Of a stretch of DNA of 64,000 bases, positions 3,634 to 62,200 are shown piece after piece. The position numbers and the translations under genes were made by a program. How positions within the stretch are numbered: position 1 is the first letter of the stretch; every line of letters begins with the position of its first letter. This DNA is from Chlorella sorokiniana (lineage: Eukaryota; Chlorophyta; Trebouxiophyceae; Chlorellales; Chlorellaceae): positions 496,001-560,000 of the forward strand of contig CP084616.1 in NCBI GenBank assembly GCA_025917655.1. Direction: 5' to 3'. The notes below the pieces were generated by a model that was not told the DNA's origin, ran no database searches, and worked only from the letters and a program-made list of their open reading frames with translations.

Positions 3634-4132
3634 GCGCGTCAGCCGGCAGGCGGGGCGGCGTCGCCTCCGGCACCTGCGAGCGCCGCTGCGGCTGGAGCAT
3701 CGCGCTGCGGCGGCGGCGACCAGAGGAGCGCGTGCAGGCGCAGCCTCCCACTGCAGATCCAGCATCGGCTGCCCGCCGTGCACTTTGCACCTCGCTGGAC
3801 TGCTCTGCTTTTGGGCAGGACGCACCACTCCTGCCCAATGCCTTCCGGCTCCCTTCCGCTCGCCTTGATTCTGCCTGCTGGCCCTTGCCTTGACAGCACT
3901 GTGACAGGTTTTTGCAGGCTGACTGTGCTGCCGGGCATGCAGACACGGTGGTTACAAGGGTGCCCGAGGGCGCAGAATGGTGGCAACGGTGGAGTCAGTT
4001 TGAAGCAGTGGTGCAGTCAGGGTGGGCAGGGGGAAGGTCAGTCCGGGCACGAGTACATGTGAGAGAGGAGAAGCAGCAAGAGGAATGCAGGAGAAAGGGC
4101 CAGCTTTGGCGCTCGCTGCGCTGCCGCCATCG
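3634..4132. other. Convergent 3' UTR region
   Basis: This gap lies between the tail-to-tail membrane protein and formin genes and has no supported gene. On the minus strand a TGTAA motif (TTACA at 3952-3956) lies about 180 bases past the formin stop. TGTAA is the usual chlorophyte polyadenylation signal, so it probably marks the formin mRNA end. Confidence 0.5.
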
Positions 4133-6948
4133 CTAGCGCCGGCGCGCGCTGTCTGGACCGCGCGTGGGCCCCGCGGCGGCAGCGGCGGCCGCCAGCATCT
4201 GGCGGTGCACCTTTTTGCAGCAGGCGTCAAAGGCTGTTTGGAAGCTGAGCAGCACCTCGAAAACGGAGGACTCTGGGTCGGCGCCAGCCTCTCCCAGCCA
4301 CGCTATGGTCTCCTTGACCACAGCGGACGTCAGCTGCGCCGCCTCCTCCAGCCCCGCCTGCCGCGCCTCCGCCTCAGCCACAAACGCCTGCAGCATTGCG
4401 GCAAAGGGTGACGCCGGCGGCCCCTGCTGCTGCTCTCCCTCCTGCTCCATCTCAGCCGGCTCGCCGTTGCCGTTGCCGCCCTTGGCAGCAGCCGCCGCCT
4501 CCAGCTCGCTGGAAAAGGCGGCCTGGCGAGCGGCGGCGGGGCTGGTCGACGCCCCGTCGCCGCCGTCGCCACCGCCATCTCCATTTCGTGCCGCCGCTGC
4601 CCTGAGCCGCTGCTGCTCCAGCTCCGCGTCTAGCTCATGCCGCAGGTTGCGCATGCCGGCCTCCAGGCCACGCATGGAGTCAGCGACGTCTGCGGGCAGC
4701 AAGGAGCGGCAGGCGCCAGGGCCATTCACAACGTCGCGGCCCGCAGCCGATCGCTCGCCCGCTTCTTCTGTTTTTGCTGGCTGAGTACACTCACCCGTCT
4801 GCATGCGGCGCACAGCCAAGGCCAGCTGCGGCAGCTCCTGCTCCAAGAAGCCCGCCCGCACCGCCTGCGCCAGCGCCTCCCCCGTCAGGCCGCCGCCCCC
4901 GCCGTCAGCGCCGTCGAGCAGAGCAGCCTCCTGCTCCAGCGCAGCCCACGCCACAAACTCGAGCAGCGTCTTGACGGGCGGCAGCGGCGGCGCGGCCACG
5001 ACGCCGTTGGCGGCGCCAGCTGCGTCGGCGCCGTCGCCCGGGAAGGCCCCCCGTCTCCTCCGCCTCTGCAGCCGAGGGCGGCGGCGATGGGGCGTCTGGG
5101 CGCCGCCGCTGGGTGCTGCCGTCACCTTGACGTCGTTCAGCTTCAGCAGGGACTCGAGTTTGATGCCGCCTGCAGAGGAAGGAACCCACCAAAACACACA
5201 CACTCAGAGGAGGCATTGCTTACAGCGAACAAGCATGGCCCTCCAACCAACTAGCTGGGCTTCTGCAGGCCTTTTCTGTACAATAGCTCCGCATGCAGCA
5301 TTGCTGCCGCAGGCTTCATTCCAGGCACCCACCCGCGCCGCCGCGAGCGCTGCCCGCGTTCAGCTGGTTGCCCGCCGCCAGCACCAGCCCCAGCACGCGG
5401 CGCAGGCGGCCGCTGGCGCGGGCCTCGGCGCAGGCGCGGCGCAACGTGTACATGCCGCCCAACGCCTCGACGCACAGGCCCTCAAACTGCCGGCGGAAGA
5501 TGAGGGCCTGGACCTGCGACAGCGGTGTGTGTGTGTGTATGAGCGAGAGAGAGAGAGTATGTGTTTCTGGGGCAATGGAAAGATGGTGAGGGCTGGGGTG
5601 GGGTGGGGGGTGGGTGAGGGTTGCACCGTCTTGGGTGGCCGTCGGGTGTGTGGGGGTGTGCAGCGTGCAAAAGCCTGCCCGCTGCCCCCTCCCCCACCCC
5701 TCCTTCCCCAATGCCTTCTAAGCGCGTCCGTCCTTGGCTGGCGGGCATAATGAAAACCACAGCCAGCACAGCGCAGGCCAGCGCAGCGCAGCGCCCATCC
5801 CCACGTGACCAGCAGCTGCTTGCCTTGCCCTGCAGGCGCGGTACGTCGGCCATGACCCGCAAAAACTGCTCCGGCGGGGACAGCTCCAGTCGGGACCGTG
5901 GTACAGCTTCAGCGCCTTGGCCTCGTCCATGCTGGGCGCAATCTGCGGTACGGCGGTGCAGCCGCAGCGGTACAAGGCCTCACCCCCAAGCGAAAAGGGA
6001 GAACGCGTGCAGCGCCTGGATGAGGACTCACAGCGGCGCGGTCGCCGCGTCGGGCGGTGCGCACGGCGGCAGCATGCAGGGCTGGGCCGTGGCGGCAGGG
6101 CACCGCCGCAGCGGGCACAGCGCACACAGCGCAGCGCAGCTTGCCTGCAGCAAGGTGGACAAATGCTCCAGGCCGAGCCGGTCGCTGCCGCTCAGCACCG
6201 CCGCCTTGATGTCATGCGGGCCGCCGAACGATGCAAACTGCGGCGCGGGAACCAGGCACATCCCCCGCAGCGTTGGAGAGGGCAGCAGGGGCGTGGCAGT
6301 GGGGTGGATGAGCCGGGCGGCGGCGGCCAGCATGCATCGCCGGGAGGCATGCCCCATGCGCCTGGCCAGGAACAGGCGGCGCTGCACGCAGAAACGCGCA
6401 GAGCAGCGCAGCCAAGCGCGCTGAACGAGAAGCATGGGGCGCTGGGCAGCACACGAGCCGCACGGGGAGCCATCACGCAACAACAGAAAGAGCCAGCCCA
6501 CGCCCGGTGCCGCCGCACCTGGGTGAGCATGATGGAGATGTTGTTGGCGCGCGGCAGCGGGATCACCTTCACCACGGCGGCGCCGCCCCGCCCCGCCGCC
6601 CCGCGCCGACGACGCCGGGGTGGGCGGCCGGCTGTCCCGCAGCTGCGGCGGGAACCACAAACAGACTGCTGGTGATCAATGCTGCCATGCAAGCTTCACA
6701 CGCGATGATTGAAACCGCAACGACATAGGTGTTTGGGGGCTGTCGTGACGGGACGTGCACGGTGCGGCGAAGGCATTGGGTACGCGCGTTGCACCGCGCG
6801 CCCCAGGCAGGCGGCGGGCAGCCCTGCTGGCTGGCGCCGCCCTTCCCGCCGCCACCCACCTCGAACAGCTTGACCAGGGCTGAGTTGAAAGGGTGGGGCA
6901 GGTCGCCCACAGGGGCCACCTCGCTCCACAGCGTGCCGGGCTGCGGTG

Positions 6949-6979
<31 letters not shown>

Positions 6980-7359
6980 GGGCGCAAAACAGGCAGATGG
7001 GCGGCTGCACGGCTGCAAGCCCCGGGCATCAGAGACAAGCGGCTGCAGACGGGGCCCCTGCCAGAACTCGCAACCCACACCAAATTGACCTTCCTGCTCG
7101 ACCGCCTCTTCACATTGCTACATAAAACGCCCTCACCATGCACCGCAGGCAGCCAGCGGGCAGCCCACCTGAGCGCTAAGCTTGGTCCAGTAGAAGGCGC
7201 GCAGCTTGGGCGCATCTGGGTCCCGGCGAGCGGGTGTGCCGGGCGTGCCTGGCAGGCGCCGAGCGCCAGGCGGCGGCGGCGGCACACCCTTGCCCAGGGC
7301 GTGCGCAGCCCCCCGGCGGCGGCAGCGGCGGGGGCCTCGGCCCCTGCCGGGACTGGCGC

Positions 7360-7390
<31 letters not shown>

Positions 7391-10300
7391 GCGGGGCTGG
7401 CGCCGCCTGGGAGGGGGCGGCGGCGGCGGGGCCGAGGGTCCCGCGCCGCCAGGGCTGCCGCTGCCGGGCAGCGGCGGCGGAGGGGGCGGCGGGCGAGGCG
7501 AACCGCCGCCAGGGCTTTGGCCAGGCAACGGAGGGGGCGGGGGCGGCGGTCGAGGCGAACCGCCACCAGGGCTGCGGCCAGGCAACGGGGGGCGGGGGCG
7601 GCGGACGGGGCGAGCTGCTGCCCGGGCTGCCGCGGGCGGGCAGCGGCGGAGGGGGCGGTGGAGGGGCAGGCGCTTGCCCGGGCGATGGGCACATGGAGCC
7701 TGCTGCTGCTGCTGCCACAGGCCTTGGCGGCGACGCACCCAGAGGCAGGGCGGCAGCGGGGGGCGGCGGCGGAGCGGCGTTGCCACTCGGACCTCCGGCA
7801 ACCCCGGTGCCAGGCGCGGCCTGCTGCTGCTGCTCCTGCCGCTGCTGCGGCTGCAGCACTTCAGGCTGTCCCTGCCCAGGCAGACGCCGTGTGCAGCCCG
7901 GGGACAGCGGCGCAGCAGCGGCGGCGGCGGGGGCGCGCCGCGCCGCGCAGCGCCAGCGGGGACGCCGGAGAGGGCGGCGGCCGGCCCGGAGGCAGCCGGT
8001 CGTCTGGCTCGCCGCCCGGCGACGCAGCGGCGGCAGGCCGCTGGGCCAGCTTAGCAGCCTCCTCGCTCTCCTGCTGCTGCTGGGAACGCTGCTGTTGCTG
8101 CGACGGCTGCGGCTGCGGCTGCTGGGAAAGCTGGTGCTGGTCTGTCGCCGCTGCGGCGGCTGTGGGGGCGGCCCCTGCAGCACCTGCTCGGTTGGGACCA
8201 CCTCAAACTGCGAGGCATCAATGTCCCGCAGGCCAGACCGGGTGCGCGCCATGTCGCCGCTGCCCTGCGCCGCGATGTGGACCAACGCGATGGCGGCCTT
8301 CACAGAGTCGCCGCCCGACCCGCAGCGCCTCCGCCCGCCGTCCCGGCAGGCCGCCGTCGGCGTCAGGCGGGCCGGCCGCACCGCCGGCGGGCTGCCGGGC
8401 GTCACGAACTGCGAGCCGTCGCTCTCGCTGCCCTCTGCCGCCGCCTCTGCAGCATCGCTTCCTCCGGCCTCAAACGTCGCTGTGCGGTGCTCTGACTCGG
8501 ACCCATCTCGCTCGCCGCCTAGCTGCTCCTGCGAGCCCCCTCCCCCCTTCCAGCCGCAGCGGCAGGCCGAAGATGGGCGGCGGGCGCTGCCCCGCGTGGG
8601 GCGAGGAGGCGGGCGAGGAGGCTCGGCTGCCGGGCACCTGGCTGGATGCAAAGGAGCTCTGGCGCGACTGCAGACCCCGCGGGATCTGGGAGGGCGCAGC
8701 CGCGACCCCTGCACAGCCCGCACCTGGGCTATCACATCTCGGAAGCCCCCTCCGAGGGCGCTCTGCAGAGGCGGGAGGGGGAGGTTGGTGCAGGGCGGCG
8801 GGCAGGAGTGGCAGCGGACGCGGGCAGGAGTGGCAGCGGCGGTGGGCAGGCGTGGCAGCGGCGGCGCTTGCTTGCTGTGCAGCACAGGGAGGCAGCCGTC
8901 CGCCCTGCACCAGCCCGCGGCTAGCAGCCATGCTTGCGCGCTGCCCACGGCAGGCGCCGGCGCGTGCGGCGGCACGTGTACTGCTGCTGCTCACGGCTTG
9001 TACTGCAGCCACCCCTCCGTCTGCTCTACCAGGTCCAGCCAGGAGGCGCGCAGCCGCAGGACGTCGGTGGTGTGGTCCTCCTCCTCGCTGCGGAGCAGGA
9101 GAGGTGCAAGACCCTCAAACGGATGCAGGGAAGCAGAGGGAAACCACCGAGCAACCAAGCAGAGGACGAGAGTCAAACTGCCGCAAACTATACTGTGCCG
9201 GGCAGCAGCTGCTGCATCGGGCGGGCCAGATGCGGGTGCCGCGCCGCACTGAACGTGTCGCCTGGTGAGGGCACTGTGGTGTCGGCATATGGTACCGGCA
9301 GCTGCCCACCAGCTTCCCAATGCCCCCGCCGCCTCCTCCGCCAGCAGCTTGATGTCCATGAAGAAGCCTTCTCGCTCGGCGTACTGCGCAGCTGCCGTGG
9401 AGCTTCCGGGCACATCCAGCTTGCGTGCTGCACCAACAGGCGGGCAGTTGGGAAGGCAAACGGATTTCTAGCAGTGCGGCATCACGCAGGCTAGTTGGCA
9501 GGCGGCCTGGCGTTGCCGTTGGGCCAGGAAGCAGGGCGCGGGCGCCTCCTTTGGCATTTGCCTCGCGCCCGCCCCCCACACACACACACACACACACCGC
9601 TGCCAACCATGTTCACTTCCCCCACCCCACACACACCTGTGGCCCGCAGCACCCTGCCGCCCTCCTCGCAGTCGACAAAAGCGGTGTGGAAGGCGTAAGC
9701 CAAGGCTGGCGGGTCCCACTGCGGGGGCGGCAAGCAGGCAGATCAGCGCCAGAGGGTGTGAGCTCCCCGACGGGGACAGTTGCCTTCAAGGCAGCCGGCT
9801 GCAGGCAGCCAGCCGGTGCAGGCAGCGAAGATGTGTGTCTCCCGCTGCTGCTGCGCCCCCCGGGGCCACTCCTTCCGCTGCAGCCGCGGGTGGGGAGGAG
9901 CACCTCTGATGCGTGGTCTGTGAACCAGATGGCGACGGTGACATCGCCCTTCACCGGCAGGCCCACATCGAAAATAACGGTGTCGTCCTGCGCGTGCAGG
10001 GGCAGAGGAGGTGGTTTTACGCAGCAGTGGTGGTGCTGTGTGGTGTGGAGGGGTGGGGTCAAATGCGTGTGTGTGTCCGGGGGGGGGGGGGGATGAGAGG
10101 CGGGGGCAGGGGCTGCATGGGTCCAACTGCAAGCTGTCAGTAAACTTCTTCGCCACTGGCTCTGGGCCCGCACTGAGCCGGGCAGCAACCCCTGCGCAAG
10201 CGGCTTGCGGAGCTGGTTGCCGGCACGGCAGCTTGCTCGGCCTGCCTGGGGCCTGCAGCAGCGGCTGGCGCAGCCGTTGCAGCAGCGGGCTGGCGCAGCC

Positions 10301-46292: not shown

Positions 46293-46972
46293 CTACTGCC
46301 GCTGCGCCAGCTGCAGCGCCGCCGCCACCTGCGCGGGCTCCAGCTGGCTGGGCGGCACGGAGGGCGAGGCGGGCCGCGTCTCCCCGCCTCCCTGCTGTTG
46401 ATGCTGCTGCCCAGGTGCCACTGCCAACTTATTTTTCTTCTTGGCCTTCTTGGCCCCTTCCTGCTGATGTGCCTCTGCCTGCTCCTTTTGCTTCTTCGTC
46501 TGTGGCCCTGCTGTCTTGCCCACCTCCTGTTGTTGCAGCCCTTGCAACTGTTCCTCCTTTGCCTTGGCTCTCCTTGCCGCCTTGTCTGCCCCCAGCTGCT
46601 GCTGCTGCTGCTGTGACTGGCTCTGCTGCTGGGAGTGAGACGGCATCAGCGGCTGCTTGGCCACCGGCGGTGCATGCTTGGTGGCAGCAGGCTGACTGGA
46701 CGACGGCGGCTTTGGGGCCTTGCTGGCCGCAGCGGGCGCCACATGCTTGCCCGCAGCAGGCTGGCCAGGCGGCGCGGGCTTGGGCGCTGCGTCGAACGCC
46801 GCCGCCGCCAGTGCTTTGGCCGGCTTGGGAGGCTTCTCAGCAGGCGCGCCATCGCCAGCCGCCTTGTCCTGCGCACGGGCAGCAGCCGGTGCAGGGATGG
46901 GCGGTGCTGCCGCTGCTGCGGGCTGCGTCTGCGCCAGCTGAGCGCTGGCTGGCGCCGCAACGGCGCCGTCCG

Positions 46973-47010
<38 letters not shown>

Positions 47011-50000
47011 GGTGACTGAGGCCGCGGCTTGCTGCCAGGCCGCGCCTCCGAGTCAGGCTCGGAATCCGAGGCATCCCAGCTGTAAGCCAGATCGTCGAGG
47101 GCGGCCCCGCTGGGCGCCACGACGTTCTCGCTGCTGCCTGCGGCACGGGAAGGGCGGCAGGACCAGCCCGGGGGTGATCCAGAGGCACAGGGGGCCAGCT
47201 GCTCTCGCCTCAGACGCATAACCAACCAGATCGGTGCAAGCATGGGGCAGCCCTCTCACCGTTGCCGCCGCCTGCAGCGCCCGCAGCAAGGCCCAGCGAA
47301 GCCAGCGGGTTGTATTCGTCGTCACTGCCGCCGCCGCCGCCAGCGCTGCCCGACCCCGCCGCAGACCGGCCCTTGCCCTTGCTGCCCCGCCCCCTTTCTC
47401 TGCGGGCGGGAGAGGCGGTACACGTAGTGGGGGAGCGGCAGCGTGTGCGGCTGGGGAAGGGGGGTGGCTGGGGAGGGGCCGCCATCGCACAAGGGCCGGC
47501 AGCCCTTCACAACAGCCTTTCAACGGGATTGGCAATCAACGGGGTGGCCGCAGCAGGAGCATCCCAGGCACCCCAGCGCCACCTCAGCGCAGCGCCAGCT
47601 CAGCAGGGGCATGCGCCCACCTGGCGAGTCGTCCTCGGGGCCCAGCCACTCCTCCATCGAGTCGTCCCGAGCGCAGTAGTTGACCGCGCGCCGCGCGCGC
47701 GCGCCGCCCCGCCCCAACTCCACCTGTGCCTGCATGCGGCGAGAGGGCAGGGGCAGCGTGCACATGAATCAACAAAAGAGCCGGCTACGGCCGTGCCGCG
47801 CAGGAAGGTGGATTGCTTTTCCAAGGCAAGGTGGGAGTGCTGCGTGACAGAGTCTTGCGAGCCACAGTGCGCTGGGCTGCGGGCGGTGCGTCCTCCCCCT
47901 TAAAACAAGTGCCCCCCCCGCCGACAAGCACAGCAGCTGCAACGCAAGCCAGCGGTACGTACCGCCTTGTCAGCCTCGTACTTGCGCGCCCGCTCCTGGA
48001 TGAGGCGCAGCATGGCCGCCTCCATCTCCGCGTCCTGCGCTGCGCTGGCAGGGCCGCCGTCGCCGCCACCGTCGCCGCCGTCGAACTTCATGGCTGCGGC
48101 GCCGCCGGCACGCACCTCGCCCAGCAGTGTGGCTGTTTGGGTGGGTGGGGGGTGGTGAGGGGGTCCAGAAATGAGGGAAGGGTGCGGAAGGGCGACCGCG
48201 CAGCCCAGCAGAAAGGAGTGGCGTGTGCAGAGTAGCAGCCTCAACAAGTTCGCTTTCTTGAGCCGTTCCTGCCAGCAAGGCAGCTCCAGGCACAGACCCA
48301 GCTGCCCCGGTTGAGGCAGCGCAGGGCAGCCCAGGGCAGCCCAGCCCTCACCAGCATCCGCCCCCGAAGCGATGTCGTCAGCATACACGTGCTCCCGGTC
48401 CAGCAGGCGCGCCAGCTCAGCATCGCTCAGCGCGCACTCCGCCCCGCCCGCCCCGCCCGCCGACGCCTCCTCCTCCTTCTGGCGCATGAGGTTGCCCCAG
48501 CCTGCGGCGGTGTGACGCGCAGAGGTGAGCCTTTGCACCCCCAAGCGCACCACGAGCGCAAGAGCTGAAGGCAGGCTGCAGGCGGTCTTGGACGGCCGGG
48601 GCTGCTTGTACCGCTGCTGTACAGCGGTACGCCGTGCTGCCACGCCAGCCGGGCGCTCACCGTGCAGCACCGAGGACTTGATGTCGTCGTCGCTCACGTC
48701 CCGGGCCCTGCCCAGGTGCCGCGTCACCAGCTCCTCCAGCTTGCGCTTCCTGACCGGGGTGGGCGGGAAGGGGGCGGGGGGGGGCTTTGTAAACGTTTCA
48801 AGTGGCGTGGTGGGGGGTGGGTGGTTTGGGTGTGGATTATTGTTTGCACTGAGGGAGCGAGGGAAGGGAGGGAGGAAGGGAGGGGGCGTGCCTTGCAAGC
48901 CGGGTGCACTGGCAAGACAACAGGCGGGCGAGACAGCGAGACACCGGATGCAGGCAGGCTGATCTTGGTGCTGCTCCACGCCCGCCCGTCGGCCACCCGC
49001 ACCCACCACCGTCAAGCGCGCCGACCTCCATCGCCCCCCCTTACCTGGCCGCCAGCGCCAGAATGCGCTCCTCCACCGACGCCGCCGTGTAAAGTTGGTA
49101 CACCAGCACCGTCTCCTCCTGGCCCAGCCGGTGGGCCCGCCCCTCCGCCTGCATCCCGCACCCCGCACAGACGAGCGGCTTGCTGCTGACTAGCGGGCGG
49201 CTGGCTGGAGTGAGCTGGCTGGCAGCATGTACGCACGCAAATCCTCGCCTCGACCACGCCAGGCTTCCAGCGATGCCCGCATTGCACCACTGGCACCGGT
49301 GATTGCGTCCGGCACAGCCTTCGCCCCCACCAATCCCACCGTCACCTCCCACCACCATCATCCCCCCCCAACACACCCACAGCCCCACCTGCGCGTCCAC
49401 AAAGGGGTTGAAGTCCGGGTCCAGCAGCACCACGGTGTTGGCGGTCTGCAGGTTGATGCCCAGGGAGCCGGCCCGCGTGGAGATGAGGAAGACGCGCACC
49501 TGGGGGAAAAGGGGGAGGGGGTGTTGTTCATGTGTGGGTGGGTGTGTGGAAGGGGTGTTACTGGCTATGGGGGCGGCGCCAACGGTGAGCTTGCCAGGGG
49601 CGGAGGTGCATGCTCCCAGCCAGGCGCACAGCCACACAAAACGTGCCCCAAAGGCACTCCCTCCCTCCCTCCAATCAGAAGCAGTTCAGCTCAAGGCGGC
49701 GCCCACCTTGCAGTGCAGGGAGTTGAAGGAGTCCATCATCGCCTGGCGCTGCCAGCCCTTGGTGGAGCCGTCCAGGCGGAAATAACGGATGGCGGAGCCA
49801 CGCCGCCCCGCACGTAGTCCTCCTCCTCCTCCGAGCCGCGCCCCTCGCTGGCCTCGCCGCCGCCGCCCTCGTCGCTGCATCGGCGGTGGGAGCAGGCGCG
49901 GGGTGGCAGGGCAAAGCAGCGGGTCGTTGCTCGCCGAGCGGCACCCGAATGGGAGAGTGCTTGGCTCCCAGGCTGCGCTCAGGTGACCACTGAGGAGGAA

Positions 50001-53000
50001 TACTAAGCCTGCAAGGTGTGTCCAGGACCAACAAAACAGGGGTACCGCAAGTAGGGCTGCACGCCCACCTGGCGTTCGCCTCGCTGGCCGCAGCGGCGCC
50101 GCTGTCGGGCTGCGGGTCGGCGTCTGCGTCGGGCAGCAGGCCGGTGGGGTCCTGGAAGGAGAACAGGAAATCCTCCAGTATGTCCAGCATCTGCGGAGGA
50201 AAGGCGGTAATGGGCATAATTGACATGATACAGGGTGGCACGACTGGGGCACCCCCAGCCCTCAGTCACTGCTCGTCTTTGGCTGCCCGAGATGTACGCG
50301 GCGTGGGGTAGATGATTGAGAAATTGATGATTGCAAGGCCGGCGGCAGCGCCCACTGCGCCGTTGATGCCGCTGCAAGCCCGCGCGGCAGCAGCAGCCCC
50401 CACCTCGACCGACTGTGAGAACAGCAGCACACGGTGGCCGTCCGCCAGCAGGCGAGGCAGCAGCTGCTGCAGCAGGGTGAGCTTGCCGGAGGCCGCCACC
50501 ATGAGGCGCCACCCCTGCTCCGCCGCCTCGGGGCTGGCAGGGTCTTTGAACTCCTGCGGTGGGTGGGGTGGGCGGAGACGGCACAAACCTCCAGTCAGCG
50601 GCAGCCTCTTCCTGGGGCAGCCAGCAGGCAAGCCCAGCATGTCTAAATATCAGCGCATGCCGAGGGGCAACGGCTCGGTGTTCATGTCACATGGCAGGAG
50701 CTAGGGCAGTGAGGCAGGGTCCAGGGCTGGCTGCCAGCAGCAGGCGGTGGCCTCTCTGCCCAAATGCAGCAACCCGGTGCTGCGATTGCCCGCCCACCCA
50801 CCTCCGGCTCCTGCCCGGGCAGCAGGTAGGGATGCATGCAGGCCTGGCGCAGCCGGATCAAGATGTTGTTCATGCTCTTCTTCTCCAGGCGGTTGCTCAC
50901 TGCGGCCAAAGACGCGGGGTTGGCGTGCGGAAACAGCGGCAGTGAGTCGGCAGGGGCTCCGCTCGATGCAACAGCCCGGTGGAAAGACAGCACCGCGGGG
51001 CAGCCTGCCCGGGACGTAGCAACCGGCCAGGAGGCGCGGAGACGCGGAGACGCCCACTGCCGCAGGCTGCGGTTGTGCGCCGCTCGCTGTTCGCAGCAGC
51101 GTGTTGCGTGCGGCGGGGGCGGCTGCAGCGCACCCATTGCGTGCACCCTGTCCCAGTCCTTGGCCAGCAGGTCCAGGTAGAGCTGCAGCTGCAGGGGCGT
51201 CATGCGGCAGGCCACCCTGCGCGTGATCTGCGCAGGGAAGTGGGGGAAGAGCAGGGGCGGAGACGGAGAGGTCACAAATGGACGTGGGGGAGGGAGGGGC
51301 GGCACCGACAGGTACAGGCAGGGCGGGTGGGATGGAGCGCGGGCAAGCACTCCAGGGCCTGGCAATGTGCCCGTGCATTGCTTTTAGATGGGGGATCAAA
51401 AGACACTGAAAGATGATCAGCAGCCAGGCAGCGGGGGCTGCCAGGCTGCGGCTCAGGCCAGCAAGGCGGCAGGCGCCCCCGTTGCAGGCCCCCACCTTGG
51501 GCGGCATCTGCCCCGCCAGGCACACCGCCTTCATGCGGCGCAGCATGCGTGGCTCCAGGTAGGCATGCAGCTTCCTGCAGCGGCGGCGGCGGTCGTGTGT
51601 GGTGCGAGGGTTACTCTTGGGCGAAGTGGGAGGGGTTTCGTAAATGGGACGCAGGGTGCCTGCCTGATGCATGCGTGCTGCAGCGGGGCCAAGCGAGACG
51701 CAAGGGCAAACAGATACTATGCGCTGCAACGGCAGGATGTAATATATAAGCTCATCCTTCCCTGCCCCCCCCACCCCCACCCCCCCCCCCCACCCCACCC
51801 CACCCCACCTGATGTATGCCTGCGCCTCTTGCAGCTCCTCGTCGTCGCCGCCCTCCTCGGGGCCAGGCGACGCGGGGTCGGCCAGTTTCTGTGACGGCAG
51901 GGCAAGCAGAGAGTGTTGCCGCAGCAGGCCACCAGCGTCAGCGCCTGTCAGCAGCAAGTGCAGGATCCTATGCAAAAAAGGCGGAACCCAACGGCGGATC
52001 ACGGCAGTGCGCCAGGTGCGCTAACCAGCACCTCCTGTTGCGGGCTGCCCACTGGGAACAAACGTTTCTTTCTTTCATGTAGTCGCCCCACCTTCACGCG
52101 CCTCTCCACCTCCTCTATCGAGCGATCCTCCATGAAGGCCAGCAGCGCCAGCAGCTCCCGCAGGTTGTTCTGCAGCGGCGTGCCTGCAGCAGGCGCAGCA
52201 GGCGCAGCAGGAGGGGCGGTGACACACGCAGCAGAGGAAAGCGTGGCCGGCTGTGCTGTCGAGGGCTGACACGACGGGCTGGTAGCAAGGATGGCAGGCA
52301 AGGGTTGGATTCAGCAGACTGCCCACGTCCCCCATCTGGCTGCGATCGCTCGCCTGTGAGCAGCAGGCGCCAGGGCGCTCCCAGCTCGCGCAGCACTGCG
52401 CCGCGCTTGCTGTTCTCGCCTGCGGGTGGCAGCAAGCCGCGGGCCAAAACAATGACAAGGAAAGGTGCGGTCAGCGGGACATGCAATGCTCTTGCTCAAG
52501 CACATCCACGCCAGCTGCCCCTCGGAATGCAACCCCCTGCAGGACATCTGCCATCCAGCCAGCCCGCCAGCCCGCCCGCCACCCCACCCACCCTTGAGGC
52601 AGTGCCCCTCGTCCAGCACAAGAGCGGACCAGCGGAAGCGGCGCAGCACCGACACATCCTTGATGGCCACGTCGTAGGTGGTCTGCGGCGCAGTCATCGG
52701 TGGTTGTTGGGGGAGGTGGGGACAATGATGAGCAGGTGCAAGGTTTGGGGGGGGGGAGGGAGGGCACGCGCGCGGGGAGGTGGGGAGGGGGGTGCAGTTG
52801 AAAGTGAATGGTTGAGCATCCAGTTCCAGCAGGAGGCGAGCAGCAGCAGCAGGAAGGAAGCAGCACGGCTGCGAGGATGTTAGGGCCTGTTGGGGCCCAC
52901 CAACAGGATGTGGAAGCGCGGCGCCAGCGCCGTGGCCTTGCGCCGCGCCGCATCCATGTCGTCCCCCTCGCCGCCCAGCTCGTAACTGGCGGGACAGGGC

Positions 53001-56000
53001 AGCGGTACAGGCAGTGCAATACGATTTGAAAACCCGAAAAACTTTGGGCTGCCAGCAGGGCAAGGCGCATGAGGAGCAAGGCACGCGTGTCCGCCGCTTC
53101 AACAGGCCGCTGAGCCACGGCGGCAGGTCGGCGTGCCAGGCCTGCGGCAGCTGCCGCCCACCTGCGGATGATGGCGCGCGCCTCCTGCGGCCCCGTGTAG
53201 CACAGCACCTCCAGCCCGGGGCCCCACCGCCTGAACTCCCGCTCCCACGAGCCGATGGTGCTCAGCGGCGCCGCAACCAGGGCGGGCCCCGTGATCAGGC
53301 CAGCCTCCCGAGCGAGCTGCATGCGCAGCAGCCGCATGGTGGATGCAGCCAAACCTCAAGAGGATGCGCGGAGCACGCCGCGCGGAAAGGCTGCTGGGTG
53401 CGCTGCCGCGCAGGCCGGGCGGAAACGGCAGCGGCGGCCTCACAGCCGCACAGAGCTTGCTGGCTCAGGCTGCCTGGCTTGCCAGCCAGCCTGCGTCTTG
53501 GCAGCTGCGCACCTGCAGGAACACCACGGTCTGGCACGTCTTGCCAAGCCCCATCTCGTCTCCCAGGATGACGGAGCGACGCGCCGCCAGGTTGGACAGC
53601 AGGTAGCTCACGCCTGCGGCGAGCGGGGGCAGGGGCCACGGCGGGCGGATGGAGGGTGGAGGGTGGAGGCAGGCGTCGATGCCATGTTTAGGGCCAGGGA
53701 TGCTGTGAGGATCCCCTTTGCACTCAACACCCACACCTCGCCCCTGAACGCCCCAACCCCCACCCCGCCCCAAACCCTCAGCCCTAACCAAGCTGCAACC
53801 AAATGTGGGCGTAGCAGCCCTTCTAGCGCCCTACCCTCCATTTGGTAATCTTTGAGGGTGCCTGCCCCTGCCAGGAAGGCGGGCTGCGCTCGAAGCGGCG
53901 GCGGCGGGCGCCTGCGCGCCGCCTCCTCCGCCTTGTCATCGCGTTCCACCCGCAGCGCCATGCGCCGCTCAAACTGCAAAGGGGACAGGGGAGGATAGGG
54001 GGCAGAGAGGAGGGGGGGCAGGCTTGCGGTGAGGTAACCCAAGGCTGCAAGCGCAGCGCTGCAGCAGCGCTTGCTACATGCACGCACAGGCGGCGCGCAC
54101 ACCTCTGCCCTCGTCCACTCACCGGACCCCCTTCCCGTCTCCACACAACCACCCGCCGACTCGCACACATGCCGCCCAGCCCGCCCCCACATCCAAGGCG
54201 CGGAACATTGCCGCCGCGCCCACCGCAGCCTACCCACCTTCTCCAGCTCCTGCACCTCCTCCCCCTGCAGCCCCTCGCGCGGCTCCCACGTCGCCTTGTC
54301 GTACTCAAGCCCCCGCCACTTCACCAGCACCTCCTCCCGACCCGCCTCCCCGCCGTCCCGCCTGGCCACCACACGCTCCACCTGCGGGGCAAGGGGGAGG
54401 GCTTGAGGAACGCGGTCGGTGTGTGTATGTATGGTGTGTGGTGCGAGTGGGGGTGGGAGTTGGGGGAAGGGGCGGAGAAGACGCTTGGCACAGCCACACG
54501 CAAAGAGCGGCGCGAGCGGAGCCTCAACATGCAGCTCGCTGCGGGTGGTGCGCGAGAGCCTCTGCTGCGCCTGGCTGGCTGGCTGCGTCGCACGAAGGCG
54601 ACAAGAAGCGGCTTTACGGCTCGTCCTCGCGCCCCAGCGCCGCCACCAGTGCAGCGGTCAGCTGCCCACGGCGAGCCCCACCTGCAGCCACTGCTCCTGC
54701 ACGTTTGGCTCCACGCTGTCGGCGTCCCGGCTGTCCCGGCAGAAGCGGTGCAGCTGGCTGGGCGCCATGCGCGCCGTGGCGACGTCGGTCACCCAGCGGC
54801 AGCGCCTGCGTGAGAAGCGGCGTGTGGGGAGGTGGGAGGGCAGCGCGCACGCAAGCCGCCTAGCTGCTTGCCGCACGCCCAGCATGCAGCAGCGGCCACC
54901 CCTGCACAAGCTACAGAACGCCAACGGCGCCCATGAAATTCATGCCAGACGCGGCTGCGCCGCCTCACCGGTACCCCCTGCCCTTCCACTTGACAAAGTA
55001 CTCCTTGCGGCCGTCCCGCCCCGCCGGCGTGCGGCACCCCAGTATGCTCTCCACTTCCTGCAGCCCCTCGCAGCACAGCTCGCAGCGCGGGCCGCCCTCC
55101 TCGCCCTGTCGCTCCTGCGCAGAAGAGGCAGGCGAGGGGGCGCAGGCGAGGCGATTCAGCGGGCGATGCTGCCATTGGGGGGGAGACGTCAGGGGAGGCA
55201 GGCGGTGTGAGGTCGGGCAGAACGGGCAGGAGGAGGGCTGGCGTACAGCCGGCGCTCGCCTGCATGCAGCCTGCATGGCACAGCGCGCCGCAGGTGGAGC
55301 AGTACAGGAGCTGGCGAGAAGCTGCCGTCTTGCGCTTGCCGCGACCGCCGCCCGTGCCCAGCCCGCACGTTTCGCAGCTCTGCAGGGGCATGGCAGTGCA
55401 GCCAGGGTTTCCGGAGCTGGCAGGTGGGTGAGCCCAATGGCACAAGCAACGAAGCACGAGCAGCGTTGGGAGGAGCTGCCTGCATGCAAGCAGAGGGACA
55501 TCCTGCCAGCTCAGCCGGGTGGCGCACCTGCTGCGGCAGGCAGCCTGGGCAGAACCAGAAGGCCAGCGGCGCCTCGCGCAGCGGCGGGTCCAGGCAGAAC
55601 ATGTGGAAGCCACGGTCGCAGCTGTCGCACAGCAGCATCTCCTTGCCCCGTGCCTGCAGAGAAAGGGCGTTGACCCCAAACGGGCGGCACATTAACAAGC
55701 GCGGGGGGGCGGGGGGGGGGGGGGGCAGACCAACAATTGCCGCCAAACCATCCCGGTGCAAGAATGAGACGCACATGACCCTTGGCATGAAGCCTGGCGG
55801 ATGTGCCGTTCCATGTGCACAGCGCAGAACCGTACTGCCCGACAGCGCTTGTACCGCTCACCTTGGAGTCGCACACCTCGCATCGTGTCTCCTCGTACCC
55901 GCTCTTCTGGCGCTCAGCCTGGCGGTACGCCTCCATCTGCGGGCGGTACGGACCGCTCAGCACCCAGGCCAAGCGCGATGCACCCGTGGACGGCATGCGG

Positions 56001-59000
56001 GCGGCCACCCCCAGAGTGGGCCGCCCAGCACAGGCGAGCAAGCAGGCAAGCATTGCGGCGGGGCGTCCTGCGCGGTCACAGACTGGGTTTGGGCAAAGCC
56101 TGGGCATCCCAAGCTCGAAACCTTCTTGCAGCGCCACACAGTGCAGGTGCCTGTTCACCTTCAGCTCCAGCTCCTCCTGCACCTCAGCGTAGCTCTTGAC
56201 CTTGGTCCTGTTGCGCTGCGGCCGCTGCACGGCTGCAGGCTGGCGCCCACGCCGCCCGCCGCGCGCCGCGTCCCGGGCGACCCGGCCGGCTGCAGTGCGG
56301 GCGCACACGCGGCGGGGGAGGAGGGTCGCTGGCGGCCGTGGGGGAGCGCAAGGGTGCTGCCGATGGCAGGCCAGTGGAGTTGGGACCCTGAGAAAAAGCT
56401 GCCAGCCATTCAGTCTAGCCTTTCCGACTTTGTTTCACTCAACCCCGCCCACCGGCCCATGACTCCCGCCCACCATGCATGGGGTCGCCGAGATCCTCCT
56501 CCTCCGACTCATCCGCGTACTGGATGCCGCTGTCGCTGCTGCCCCCTCCTGCGAATCGTGCCCCTCGCCCTCCTCTTCACTGTTGTAGCTGCATGATCGG
56601 AAGGGAAGGAAACCAAGCGGAAAGGAAGGGCAGCATGAAATGGAGGACGGGCACATGGAATGGTGATGGTGCGGCGGCAGCTGCAGCACCAGGATGGGCA
56701 GAGGCAGCAGCGTAAACAGGGCGCGGCTCACTCTATGTGGCGGCCGCGGCTCAGGTTCTTGATGCCCTTCTGCCACCCCTCTGACATGCTGCCCCAACCG
56801 ATGTCCTCATTATACCTGCACGACAAAACAGCCCTATCCCTGTGCCTCAACCCACCCTCTCCTCCGGGCCAAACCGGGGGAGTGGCAGGGAGGCGCTGGG
56901 CTAGGCAGAGCGTGCGCCCGTGCAGCGCACTGCAGCGCAAGGCAGGCCTGCTGCTGCGCACCGCACACGCTTGTTGTCGTTGCGTGAGGATGTGCGGCGG
57001 TTCTGCTTCAGCGGCTGCGGCCTGACTAGGCCCTCCAGCCGCCGCTTGACCTGCCCCTTGCCGCTGGCCAGCCGCTCCAGCTCGGCCTTCCTGCAGAGGT
57101 GGCCGCAGCGTGCAGGTGGGAGGCAGTCAGAGCGCAGTGTGGCCAGGCCCCGACTGGGTGGCAGGCAAGAGGAGGTTGCTGGTATCGGCACGCAGGGCGC
57201 GCACAGCAGCGCTTGCCTGGCGGCGGTGCTGCGGTTGCCGTAAAGGCCTGCAGCCCGGTGGCCTTGACACCGTGCAACACAGCGTGGGCGGGGCACCTCA
57301 GCTCGTACTCATCTGCAGCAGCAGCAGCATGAGCGCACAGAGGGGCCAGTCAGAGCATCCGCTTTCATGTTCACAAGCCACAAGTGAACGCCATGCTCCA
57401 GCAGCCATGCATGCCCGCACGCCTCCCCGCTGTCCCGGGTGATGGATCTCCTGCGCAGGCCGACAGCAGCAAAACACACAAGCAAGCACAGAGCGTCACC
57501 CACCGGGGTCCACTTTGCACATCTGGGCGCAGTGGAGGTGGAACAAGGTGCGGCACTGGGGGTGGGAGCACCCGGCGGTGGCCCCAAGGCTGCCGCACTC
57601 CCTGCACTTCTGAGTCAGCGCCTCCCCCACGCTCCCTGAGAAGCTGACAACACTGCTGGCTGCAAGCAGGGAGGCCGCAACAGGGGAACGGCGACCGATT
57701 CTGCAACATGGCCCGGCATGGGGCGGGCCGAGCTGCGCGCAGCCGAGCCAGGCTTCGCTGTGGTGTCGGCAGGCGCAGGCTGACTTACCGGCCACAGTGG
57801 AGGATGAGCCGACAGAGTAGCGGGCGGGGTAGTTGAGGCCGGCGTTGCTGCTGAATGCGGCGCATCTGCGGGGCATGGAGGGTGAGACGCATTGGAGGCC
57901 GGCTGTTTGGTGGCGGACAGGGACGAGCGCCTCAAAGCGCTGGCACACGCTTGGCACATCCCCACCCTGCCCCACCCGTCACCTCACCCACCCCACCCTC
58001 GCACGCAGTCCCCACCTGCGGTGCACGACGTGCCGCCCGCCATACAGGCCGGCCAGGTCCCGCCGGTCGGCCTCGCAGAGCTCGGAGGCGCCCGGGTCCC
58101 TTTCCAGCAGGGTGGGCAGGCTGCACAGCGCGCAGCGCGGCCCGCTGGCGCCCATGGGCGGGCGCAGGCGGAACGCGCGCGGCTGCCGCTTCTCCTGCGT
58201 GGAGGCGCGGTCCGCCCGCCGTCGCGGCTCTCGTCCTCGGCATCCGTGTCGGGAACCGCTGCTGGGGGCTGCTGGGGCTGCGCTGCGCGCGTGGCCGCCG
58301 CGTGCCGGCGCAGCCGGGGCGCTGCGCAGCCAGCGCGGCCCTGTACTGCTCGTACCGCGGATGCTCCTCCAGCCGGCGCTCGTCCAGCAGGCAGATGTCG
58401 CCAATACGTAGCTCCGCCTGCTTGCCGGCGTCATCTGTATCCAGCCACCGCACGGTAAAGCTGCAGGGGGTTGGCAACCAACTTCTTGAGCTGTCAGGCA
58501 GCTGGCGAGCAACGCGGCGTGCGCCGGGCAAACAATGCAACACCGCGGGGACGGCCCCGCCGCCACCCGGCGAGCCTCACCTGCACGCGCACTTGCGGCC
58601 GGCATGCGCGGCAGCGCGCTTGGCCGCGACTTCCGCGTCGACCCACAGCGCATCTCTCTGGGAGCGCTTGAAGGCAGTGACTCGCACGCCCGGCAGCAGC
58701 CGATGGCAGTCGGCGGGCTCGGCGGCCAGGCTGCTGAAGCGGATGCTGCCCAGGTCTGCCAGCGGCTCCTCTTCGTCGGTGCCGTAGCCCTGAAAACGGA
58801 TGAACAGCTGGCCGCTGCGGTCCTTCACCTCGCAGTCATACCTGGCCACGAGGGAGAGGAGAGAGGGCTCAACGATGAGGGCGGCGCCGCTACGGCTGGA
58901 GCTGGCAACCAGCTGGGGTGGTGGCAGTGTCCGCGGTCGGCACGACCCTCACCATGCTTTGTCGAGGCGGCTCTGGCCCTCCAGCTGAAACGGATTCTCC

Positions 59001-59026
59001 TCTGGGCCGACTTCGAGTGCGGTCAT
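46293..59026 (-). CDS. CHD3/PICKLE-like remodeller with SAWADEE and extended PHD
   Basis: This is an ATP-driven nucleosome remodeller. Exon 1 (59026-58953, [20 protein letters not shown]) joins to 58841-58581 ([38 protein letters not shown]) and the exon from 58460 (FTVRWLD, GDICLL), forming a SAWADEE domain. An extended PHD follows: [19 protein letters not shown] (57865-57789) and CRECGSLG...[11 protein letters not shown] (near 57600-57510). Next come a PHD finger (CEVCDSK / [19 protein letters not shown]...WFCPGC, 55900-55540), a second Cys-rich segment, and two chromodomains ([10 protein letters not shown] near 54990; [20 protein letters not shown] near 54300). The SNF2 motor has GDEMGLGKT (about 53560), [34 protein letters not shown] and [11 protein letters not shown] (about 49130). 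The C-terminal tail is acidic, with a run of 12 Gln and Lys-rich low complexity, ending at TAG 46293. Several exons need one-base corrections. Confidence 0.93.
46974..47010 (-). repeat. CAG repeat encoding 12 glutamines
   Basis: Twelve CAG codons in a row (CTG on the plus strand) lie in the C-terminal tail of the remodeller. They are followed by further Gln-rich stretches near 46600-46630. Confidence 0.9.
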
Positions 59027-59291
59027 GGCGGCCTTGGCCCCTGTTGCCCTCTCCTGCCGTCAGCCTCTACTACCCGAGCATCGTACGATTGCGTGCGTCC
59101 TTGCAAATCCACTCCCTCTCCACCGATTGTACAAGGCGGCACTACGCATGAAATTTCAACACAGCTGGGATCCTCTAAGGGGGTCCATCATAAGCGATAT
59201 CATCACATCACCTAAGCCTTGATCGGGGCGCAAGATTAGGCCAACCAAGTTCAAGCTCGAGCCTGCTGGCCAGAGGCCCTCCCCAGCAGCC
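59027..59291. promoter_or_regulatory. Divergent promoter between remodeller and CTF4
   Basis: The two start codons are 265 bases apart and face away from each other. The stretch is less GC-rich than the coding DNA on both sides, especially 59130-59240. Both promoters must lie here. Confidence 0.55.
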
Positions 59292-62200
59292 ATGGCAGCC
59301 CTGAAACCGCTCGCGTTTTGCGAGGTTCACAAGCCGGGCCTTTGCGATGTCGCCTGGCTGCCCATCGCGGGAGGAGGAGCTGCCCTGCTCACCGCCGGCC
59401 ACGATGGCCGCCTGTGCTACCGCTCCAGCGAAGCCCCGGCGAGGCAGCCAAGGAGGTTCAGAACGCCAACAACGGAGCCTCGACTTCCATCCATTGCATT
59501 GCGGCGGCCCAGGGGCGCCCGGTAGTCACGGGTGATGACCAGAATTTCGTCAAGGTGCGTGGCGGCGGTGCCGCCGCCGCCGTCTGTCTGCATCTGTTGC
59601 CCACTCTGCCTTGCCTGCCGCCTCATGGCGCGCCATCCGCTGCCGCTCAAAAGCCTGGATACACCCTCCCGCTCCCCTGCCGCAGCTCTACTCCCACCCT
59701 GCGGGCGAGCCGGAAGGAGTGGCCACTCGGTTCACGCTGCCGGTGCGTGCTCTGGCCCCTCCCCCTCGGGGCTCAACCTTGCGGCTGGCGGCGACGACGA
59801 GGGCATCAAGCTCGTCGACCTCGCCACCTGCAAAGTCTTCCGCCAGATCAAGTCGCAGGCAGGAGGCTGGGGCGGGGCTCGCCGCTCGGTCTGGGCCACC
59901 TTGCGCCGCCCATCGTCAGTGCCATGCCGCTGCCCGGTGCAGAGCGTGCCCAGCATTGCAACCGGGTAGCCTTCCCACCCCTTGTCCCTCCCCCTCCCGG
60001 TCCCTCCCACCCTCACTCGCCTCGATCGATCACCTCCTGCTGTATTTTGAACCCAGCAAGCAGCATTGTGCTGCTGCGATGCCAACCCTGCACATCCACC
60101 CCCCACACACCCCCACACACCCCGCGCTTCCACCAGGCCTACACTCGCAGCCTGGCCTACGACCCCGAGGGCGCCTACCTGGCAGCTGTGGCTGCGGACG
60201 GTTCGCTCGCCATCTGGGACATCCAGACTGGCAAGCAGCAGCTGCTGCGCCGCAAGGCGTGCCCTAAGGTGCGCCCGGTAGGGCCGGCAGAGAAGCGTCC
60301 CGGTGCTCCCGGCGGCTGCAAGCGACCAAACATTGTGGGCGCATCTGTCACCTGTGCCGAAGACCCTGCTGCGACGCGTGACGCTGCTCGTCGAGTGGAA
60401 GAAACTCGGTTCTTGTCAGATGGAGCCTGCTGAAGCTAGCTCTCCCCCTTTCCACCCACCCCCTCTTCCTGCCAGTTGGACCCATCCTCCCCGGCCGCAG
60501 CCAGGCAGCATGGCACCCGGACGGCGGCGCCCTCCTGGCCGCTCCCGGCCTTGAGAATGACGCCGTGTTTTACGAGCGCATGAGCTGGGAGGCTGCCTTC
60601 AGCCTGGCGGGCCAGCACTCCGCGCCCGTCTCGCTGCTGGCCTTCAGCCGCAACGGTGCGCCGCGCTGCTCGCCAGCGCTGCCGTGCCGCTCCTCGCCCT
60701 GCCCAGGCCGCCTGTATGCCCCACAGGCTTCCGAGCACGGTGTTCACCGGCGCCTCTGCCTCCACCCAGCCTCTGCTCTGTCTCACAGCCGGTGTGCGCA
60801 ACTCGCTCGAGTCCCATGCGCTTCTGTCTCCCCCCCAGCAGGCCTCTACCTCGTGTCTGCCGCCGCCGACAAGTCCCTGGTCCTGTGGGACGTGAACGAA
60901 CGCAAGTGCCTGCAGAAGCGAACGCTGCCGGGCGCCGCCACCGGCCTGGCCTGGCACCCCACCAGCAACGAGCTGGCCATTGTCACCGAAGACGGTGCGC
61001 CGCCTCCCCACGCTTGCCCCCTCTCAACCCCTTTCCTGCTTGTCCTTCTCTATCAAGAACGCCTGGTATATTTTTTCGCTTCTCAGGGCATCCGTTTGCT
61101 TCAGGCTTCACATCAGATGCTCGCAGACCTGCTGCTGTGTGCCGATCCTTGCCCATGTGTGTCGCCTGTGTGTGCTCTGCAGGTCAGCTTGCCATATGGG
61201 ATGGCGTGGTGCCCCCAAGCTCCCGGCCCCGCCGTCGACGTCGACGCGCTCAACGGCATCAAGAAGGGCGGGCAGGAGGGCGCAGCCGCTGCAGCAGGCG
61301 CTGCCGCCGACGGCGTGTCGGTGCTGGAGGGAGGCGGCGGCGGCGGCGGGGGCGGCACCGCCGCGGGCGCCAGCGACGATTACGACCGGGACGACAGCTT
61401 CCTCGCGGATTCCGGTGCATGCCAGCCTGGGAGTTTGTTGGTTTGGTTTGGCCACAGGCGGGCAGCCACGCCAAGTACAGCTGTTCTTTTTCATGCATTT
61501 ACGTCCATCCCCATCTCAGCGCGAAACCCAGCAGGCTCTCCTTGCCCTCTGCTGCAGGCCCCAAGCCCGGCCCTCGCCGCGGCCGCCGCGGCGCCTTTGC
61601 CGGCTTCTCCTCCTTTGACCTGCCGCAGCCTCAGGACCCGATCCAGCCGGGGCCACCGAGATGGGTGCGTGCCCGCCGGCCAGCCACCGCCACTGCTGCC
61701 GCTGCTGGCCTGCCGCCGCCAGCTGTTGACGCCTGTCGTGCGCGTCACAGCTGCCCATCTCGCCCGCGGCTGCCGCATCTCGCTCGGCATGCCCAGATTC
61801 TCAGGGTCCGCCTGCCTCACGGCCGAACTTGCCGCGCCTTGCCGCAGGCGACAGCGGACGCTGCTACCTGGCCTACACCCCGCTGGGCTGCATCACGCTG
61901 AAGCAGGAGGAGGATCACAACGTTGTGGAGGTGGGCGCCTCTGAATGTTGGAGGCAGCCAGTGTGCGTTCAGGCCGCCCACGGCTGACCGGCTGCTTTTT
62001 GCCGCACACAGCATTGCCGGCTGCACAGCGCAGCGCGCCTCCCGCCCCGTGCCGCCGGCGCAGGTGACTTTCCATGACACCTCCCGCCAGCGCAAGCGCG
62101 TCCCGCTGCTCAACGACTTCTTTGGCTTCATCCTGGGCTCGCTGAGTGACAAGGTGTGTGGGTGGGTGGGTGGGGGGCGGGGGGGGGGCTTTCTAATGGG

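Follow-up and report, generated by a model that had tools for sequence, protein, structure and literature searches.

The analyzed window, a stretch of 64,000 nucleotides from contig CP084616.1 of Chlorella sorokiniana, carries on its minus strand a series of coding segments that begins with a start codon at 59026 and extends to an apparent stop at 46295–46293. These segments encode a SAWADEE domain followed by the modules of a CHD remodeller, and the two are joined by coding-like sequence within one exon. On the plus strand, a WD40 gene (59292–59525) stands head-to-head with the CHD gene, the two start codons (ATG 59026 on the minus strand and ATG 59292 on the plus strand) being separated by a gap of 265 bp (59027–59291). 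The PDB matches of this neighbour are WD40 proteins, WDHD1 among them, while Pfam gave no family for either of its two pieces. Read by eye, its first exon has an apparent frame break at about 59400–59460 and a stop at 59523 in the frame of the ATG.

The SAWADEE domain is spelled by the first three exons of the minus-strand series, as the sequence-only reading had proposed. Exon 1 (58953–59026) contains the start codon and the first SAWADEE residues (a stretch of 13 residues) and ends at a GT donor, with the Pfam family PF16719 matched from its position 3. Exon 2 (58581–58841), with AG and GT ends, holds most of the domain, including the zinc ligands and the predicted cage residues, and the 5′ part of exon 3 (58319–58460) supplies its end (FTVRW...GDICLL) and the scanned residues that follow, with the match continuing to position 125 of 125. 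The two exon joins suggested beforehand, 58953/58841 and 58581/58460, are both furnished with GT and AG ends, and the splice product reads through a stretch of 30 residues into KCACSFTVRW and GDICLL. A spliced query peptide of 159 residues (exons 1 and 2 plus 142 bases from the start of exon 3) was scanned against Pfam at an E-value of 0.01, and PF16719 was the sole family found (E 8e-32, 110.4 bits, positions 3–125 of 125). This is a full-length match above the curated cut-off of 28 bits and far beyond chance, and it answers the profile search that had been proposed as a check. The codon score in the SAWADEE frame is 0.56 for 58459–58310. NCBIfam, a prokaryotic library, returned no family for the SAWADEE piece. 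About 12 residues lie between the first Met and the SAWADEE domain, with no homeodomain there, and no homeobox match was obtained in the pieces scanned, which take in the linkers and the tail only in part.

A phmmer search of the PDB at an E-value of 1 matched the SAWADEE peptide to five distinct sequences. Three of them, 7eez, 7ef1 and 7ef2 (E 2.7e-12 to 2.2e-11), carry the PDB name 'HB transcription factor' and are taken by us to be maize SHH, while 4iup and 4iuq (E 2.6e-9) are Arabidopsis SHH1. Among solved structures, the SHH proteins are the closest to this domain. When PF16719 was searched in six frames against all 15 contigs of the 38.8-Mb genome, a single match was revealed at an E-value of 0.001, which is exon 2 alone (E 1.7e-16), and no second SAWADEE match. 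Likewise, a SAWADEE profile built from alignment A1, which includes the domain of this gene itself, was run in six frames over 59 genomic loci and matched only the locus that overlaps the gene, L001 (3.7e-43, next 0.25).

In alignment A1, the domain is 33% and 30% identical to the maize and Arabidopsis SHH domains, respectively. The four predicted zinc ligands (C58, H92, C97 and C99) align with Arabidopsis SHH1 and maize SHH without gaps between them, in agreement with the SHH1 spacing claimed for them earlier, and the 29 invariant columns of the three sequences include all four ligands and all but one of the five predicted contact residues. The residues at the SHH1 positions E130, Y140, D141, F162 and F165, transferred by a constant offset, are E, Y, D, F and Y here. 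In the SHH1 structure of Law in 2013, E130 and D141 reportedly belong to the K4 pocket and Y140, F162 and F165 to the K9me cage. The residues of the predicted H3K9me cage and H3K4me0 pocket are kept, with one conservative change of F165 to Tyr. The SHH1 SAWADEE domain is described as having two distant pockets, one for H3K4me0 and one for H3K9me2 (PMC6208443).

Conserved cage residues are not in themselves proof of H3K9me binding. The fusion could be real and its SAWADEE part could read H3K9me no more, serving instead for structure or protein contacts or as a reader of another mark, and the identity of just 33% and 30% to the two SHH domains and the Tyr at the F165 position may be taken in that sense. 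We regard such a loss as unlikely, since the four zinc ligands and the five predicted contact residues are all invariant in A1, save for one contact residue with a conservative change.

Downstream of the SAWADEE domain, the 3′ part of exon 3 (58016–58230) encodes the start of an extended PHD (GPRCALC...HVVHR), with a codon score of 0.44 and a GC3 of up to 0.97 in frame. The C-terminal half of the extended PHD lies at 57504–57659 (PF13771, E 3.4e-7, 30.8 bits against a cut-off of 29.1), preceded by an exon at 57865–57789 and followed by coding sequence from 57312 onwards, and its PDB matches are only weak (PHF6, KMT2D and NSD, E 0.0045–0.058). A PHD finger at 55528–55936 is split between exons 55936–55862 and 55653–55528 (PF00628, E 3.3e-15) and has CHD4 as its best solved relative (68.7 bits). 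It is followed by a PHD-like second finger (SCETCG...CHAGC) at 55260–55379, whose matches are weak and below the cut-offs (C1_1, 22.3 bits; PHD_4, 18.4 bits), by a first chromodomain in two exons at 54682–55114 (PF00385, E 8.5e-8) and by a second one at 54238–54381 (PF00385, E 7.4e-12). The motor, comprising SNF2 (PF00176, E 4.5e-63) and helicase-C (PF00271, E 3.1e-20), occupies 49044–53973, where 16 coding segments were located. The C-terminal tail (46293–49043), read by eye with its exons partly resolved, has Gln/Ala-rich stretches, and no Pfam family, the CHD3-specific C-terminal domains included, was found in the tail pieces scanned. All of these features are on the minus strand.

The order of PHD, tandem chromodomains, SNF2 and helicase-C seen in the Pfam and PDB matches is that of the CHD3/Mi-2 subfamily. 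CHD4 is also the best match of the chromodomain–motor region in the PDB, with 386.9 bits against 331.2 bits for the best CHD1 among the best 60 of 81 matches, and since it is the best solved relative of both this region and the PHD finger, the label of a CHD3-type remodeller is a fair one. The chromodomains and the CHD4 match would argue against a SNF2 protein of the CLASSY type. The earlier proposal of a SAWADEE reader fused to a CHD3-type remodeller is thus upheld by the PF16719 match, by the codon scores of exon 3 and by the CHD4 matches of the motor and the PHD finger.

Whether the two parts form one chain turns on exon 3, a single exon of 445 bases (58460–58016) that contains both the end of the SAWADEE domain and the start of the extended PHD. 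Neither of the two frames has a stop in it; however, one frame does not serve for the whole protein, because SAWADEE and the extended PHD are read in different frames and GC3 and codon scores place the step, with its apparent indel or indels, at about 58217–58253 (minus strand). The sequence-only reading had spoken of a 'corrected' protein and so had allowed for such a step. In 120-base exonic windows, GC3 in the SAWADEE frame is 0.80–0.90 down to 58201 (0.65–0.70 across intron 2), and past 58201 GC3 in the extended-PHD frame reaches 0.97. For the codon score, 822 codons from the downstream exons served as the training set, with 12 introns as the null, and in the held-out exons 1 to 3 the score ranges from 0.13 to 0.56 per codon, while the 12 introns in their best frame score between −0.39 and −0.72, an in-sample range as they trained the null. 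Within exon 3, the best-frame score in 75-base windows ranges from −0.07 to 0.88 and is lowest in the linker, where three windows lie about zero (−0.07 to 0.08) and the call is least sure. Among the frame models, that with two steps (58253 and 58217) gained 73.3 bits, with one more free parameter than the one-step model at 62.0 bits, and models with no step reached at most 3.4 bits.

A split of exon 3 by an intron at 58256–58145 (112 nt) was also considered, as no other GT..AG pair was found by which the frame could be restored. It is less likely: its donor is GTTCCC, its GC content is 0.78, its T content of 0.07 compares with 0.17–0.26 in the 12 measured introns (part of the introns of the gene), and it scores as coding, at +0.36 in the extended-PHD frame.

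The best reading is consequently a single gene that contains an assembly indel, given the shared stop-free exon, the GC3 values, the codon scores, the coding-like nature of the intron candidate and the gap of only 265 bp to the neighbouring gene. The frame step is probably an assembly indel, and a single chain of SAWADEE and CHD is very likely. We consider it probable that a single gene (about 59026–46293, minus strand) encodes an ATP-dependent remodeller of the CHD3/Mi-2 type with an N-terminal SAWADEE tandem-Tudor reader.

The frame step is not the sole irregularity, as the CHD gene shows two or more other apparent frame breaks downstream, near 56543 and 49799 (minus strand). Together with the step at about 58253–58217, these breaks could be real frame shifts of a decaying pseudogene, an explanation we hold to be quite improbable, because the zinc ligands, the predicted cage residues and the domain matches are kept, as are the splice sites and the third-position GC bias, and because the adjoining WD40 gene seems frame-broken too, which would point to assembly indels, although this is one neighbour. 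Most improbable of all is the reading in which a gene for a short SAWADEE protein overlaps or adjoins a CHD gene of its own that starts in exon 3, for instance at ATG 58155: the two parts do lie in different frames, and an ATG of the extended-PHD frame stands just before a segment of 10 residues there, but no intergenic space exists, the SAWADEE frame stays open beyond the exon 3 donor as far as a stop at 57934, the codon score nowhere drops to the intron level in the windows that lie between the two parts, and the promoter would need to sit within the SAWADEE coding sequence.

If the single SAWADEE-CHD protein is read by what is known of its families, the SAWADEE cage would bind methylated H3K9 and the acidic pocket unmethylated H3K4, while the PHD and the extended PHD may make additional contacts with the H3 tail or with DNA. 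The SAWADEE domain, with the help of the PHD fingers, would then hold the remodeller on nucleosomes with methylated H3K9 and unmethylated H3K4, where the CHD motor could slide or space nucleosomes and so keep H3K9-methylated chromatin closed. Such a protein would work like the plant SHH1-CLSY or SHH2-SWI/SNF pairs, except that reader and motor would be in cis, and the role of an H3K9me/K4me0-guided remodeller is likely.

In addition, we analyzed the rest of the genome for related genes. Ten chromodomain matches were detected at an E-value of 0.01 or better, two of which are in the SAWADEE-CHD gene. A CHD3-like gene with no SAWADEE domain and the order PHD-chromo-chromo-SNF2 lies on contig C5 at 185–187 kb (L044, C5:180001–190000, about 5100–7450, minus strand); its first chromodomain is below the cut-off (17.0 bits), and upstream of it, on the same strand, is a gene presumably for an eIF3j-like protein. 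Genes with chromodomain and SNF2 were also found on C8 and C12. The gene on C12 (L057, C12:658001–668000, about 2700–7000, minus strand) has the strongest Chromo match of the genome, and none of the 26 listed genomic PHD matches is near it. Since other CHD-like genes are present and only L001 matched the SAWADEE profile, the SAWADEE-CHD protein is therefore an extra CHD.

Matches to SRA (C2:4004557, 28.8 bits, below the cut-off), Pre-SET (4003061, 24.0 bits, below the cut-off) and SET (4001968, 26.3 bits, above the cut-off) follow one another in order on one strand of C2 (4004.9–4002.0 kb), and SRA matches above the cut-off occur elsewhere. This locus is possibly a SUVH-like H3K9 methyltransferase, a weakly supported candidate, and such a writer may fit an H3K9me-reading remodeller. 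The genome further holds two DNA methylase matches and two DUF3223 matches (C5:981407 and C2:3839632); DUF3223 is also present in the largest subunits of plant Pol IV and Pol V and is not specific to them. A light-harvesting fragment has CP26 as its best match (8bd3, a Chlorella entry, 236.8 bits, against 202.4 bits for 6kac from Chlamydomonas), so that the host is a green alga and probably close to Chlorella. In the collection of viral contigs, 0 of 20 pattern matches were confirmed for exon 2, 0 of 26 for A1 and 0 of 73 for the extended-PHD exon, and in the collection of genome contigs 0 of 321 for exon 2 and 0 of 51 for A1. These misses are uninformative on algae because the collections consist of viruses, bacteria and archaea.

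A comparison with known systems reveals that the algal protein shares PHD, two chromodomains, SNF2 and helicase-C with CHD3, CHD4, PICKLE and Mi-2, from which it differs by the extra SAWADEE domain and extended PHD and possibly by the lack of a CHD3-specific C-terminal Pfam family, none being found in its scanned tail pieces. With fission yeast Mit1 of SHREC, a CHD-type remodeller of H3K9me heterochromatin that is reached via HP1-type proteins, it has a CHD-type motor in common (its Chromo_MIT1 match being weak and below the cut-off), but it has a SAWADEE domain of its own. The streptophyte SAWADEE homeodomain proteins SHH1 and SHH2 share with it the SAWADEE domain, the zinc ligands and the predicted contact residues; they have a homeodomain, whereas the algal protein has none in the pieces scanned and bears its SAWADEE on a CHD motor.

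According to published work, the partners of SHH1 are CLSY1 and CLSY2 (PMC11603163), while SHH2 belongs to the CHR12/CHR23 SWI/SNF complex and is called streptophyte-specific by authors who suggest that the RdDM/Pol IV role of SHH1 is derived (PMC9170682). The SHH2-CHR12/CHR23 case likewise pairs a SAWADEE reader with a remodeller, but as separate subunits and with a SWI/SNF motor (PMC9170682). The HD-SAWADEE class has been traced back to the ancestor shared by Klebsormidiales and Phragmoplastophyta (PMC11712027), and SHH1 was not found in four green algae in an orthology search, which compares whole proteins and not domains (PMC4607528). In maize, CHD3a, a PICKLE ortholog, is described as helping to place Pol IV activity (PMC11166354). 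Among 56 proteins that were classed as CLASSY, Pfam matched SAWADEE in two, the moss protein Pp3c25_10710V3.1 and the soybean protein Glyma.18G023900. These have SAWADEE and SNF2 on one chain as in the algal protein, but are classed as CLASSY and not as CHD, and SAWADEE is the only domain given there besides SNF2 and helicase-C (PMC12389316).

The sequence-only reading knew of no described protein with this layout. For SAWADEE together with PHD, chromodomains and SNF2, nothing in the sources searched contradicts it, while for SAWADEE and SNF2 alone it must give way to the two CLASSY proteins (PMC12389316). In the portions seen of the literature on SAWADEE, algae and CHD3/PICKLE, the scope being papers and not databases such as InterPro, no description of SAWADEE on a CHD was found; on these sources, CLASSY provides a precedent for SAWADEE-SNF2 in cis, and there is none for SAWADEE-CHD3. 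The accompanying idea of a one-chain version of SHH1-CLSY holds as an analogy but not as a demonstrated descent, the motor being closest to CHD4 among solved structures. SAWADEE might even have arisen in a CHD3 remodeller before chlorophytes and streptophytes diverged and later have moved to a homeodomain protein, with SHH1-CLSY-Pol IV and SHH2-SWI/SNF as two re-creations in trans of an original fusion of reader and remodeller, though we find this scenario rather unlikely.

Overall, one algal chain would combine a histone-tail reader known from land plants with a nucleosome motor, two tasks that in plants mostly fall to separate partner proteins. The range of SAWADEE would thereby reach beyond the SAWADEE-homeodomain class, which PMC11712027 and PMC9170682 date to streptophytes, and SAWADEE-CHD3 would be a further way, in cis, of coupling SAWADEE to a nucleosome motor. 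Such a fusion may also have a bearing on the effect of CHD3a on Pol IV sites described for maize (PMC11166354), and a genome with no second SAWADEE match makes it testable whether a SAWADEE reader alone steers a CHD motor.
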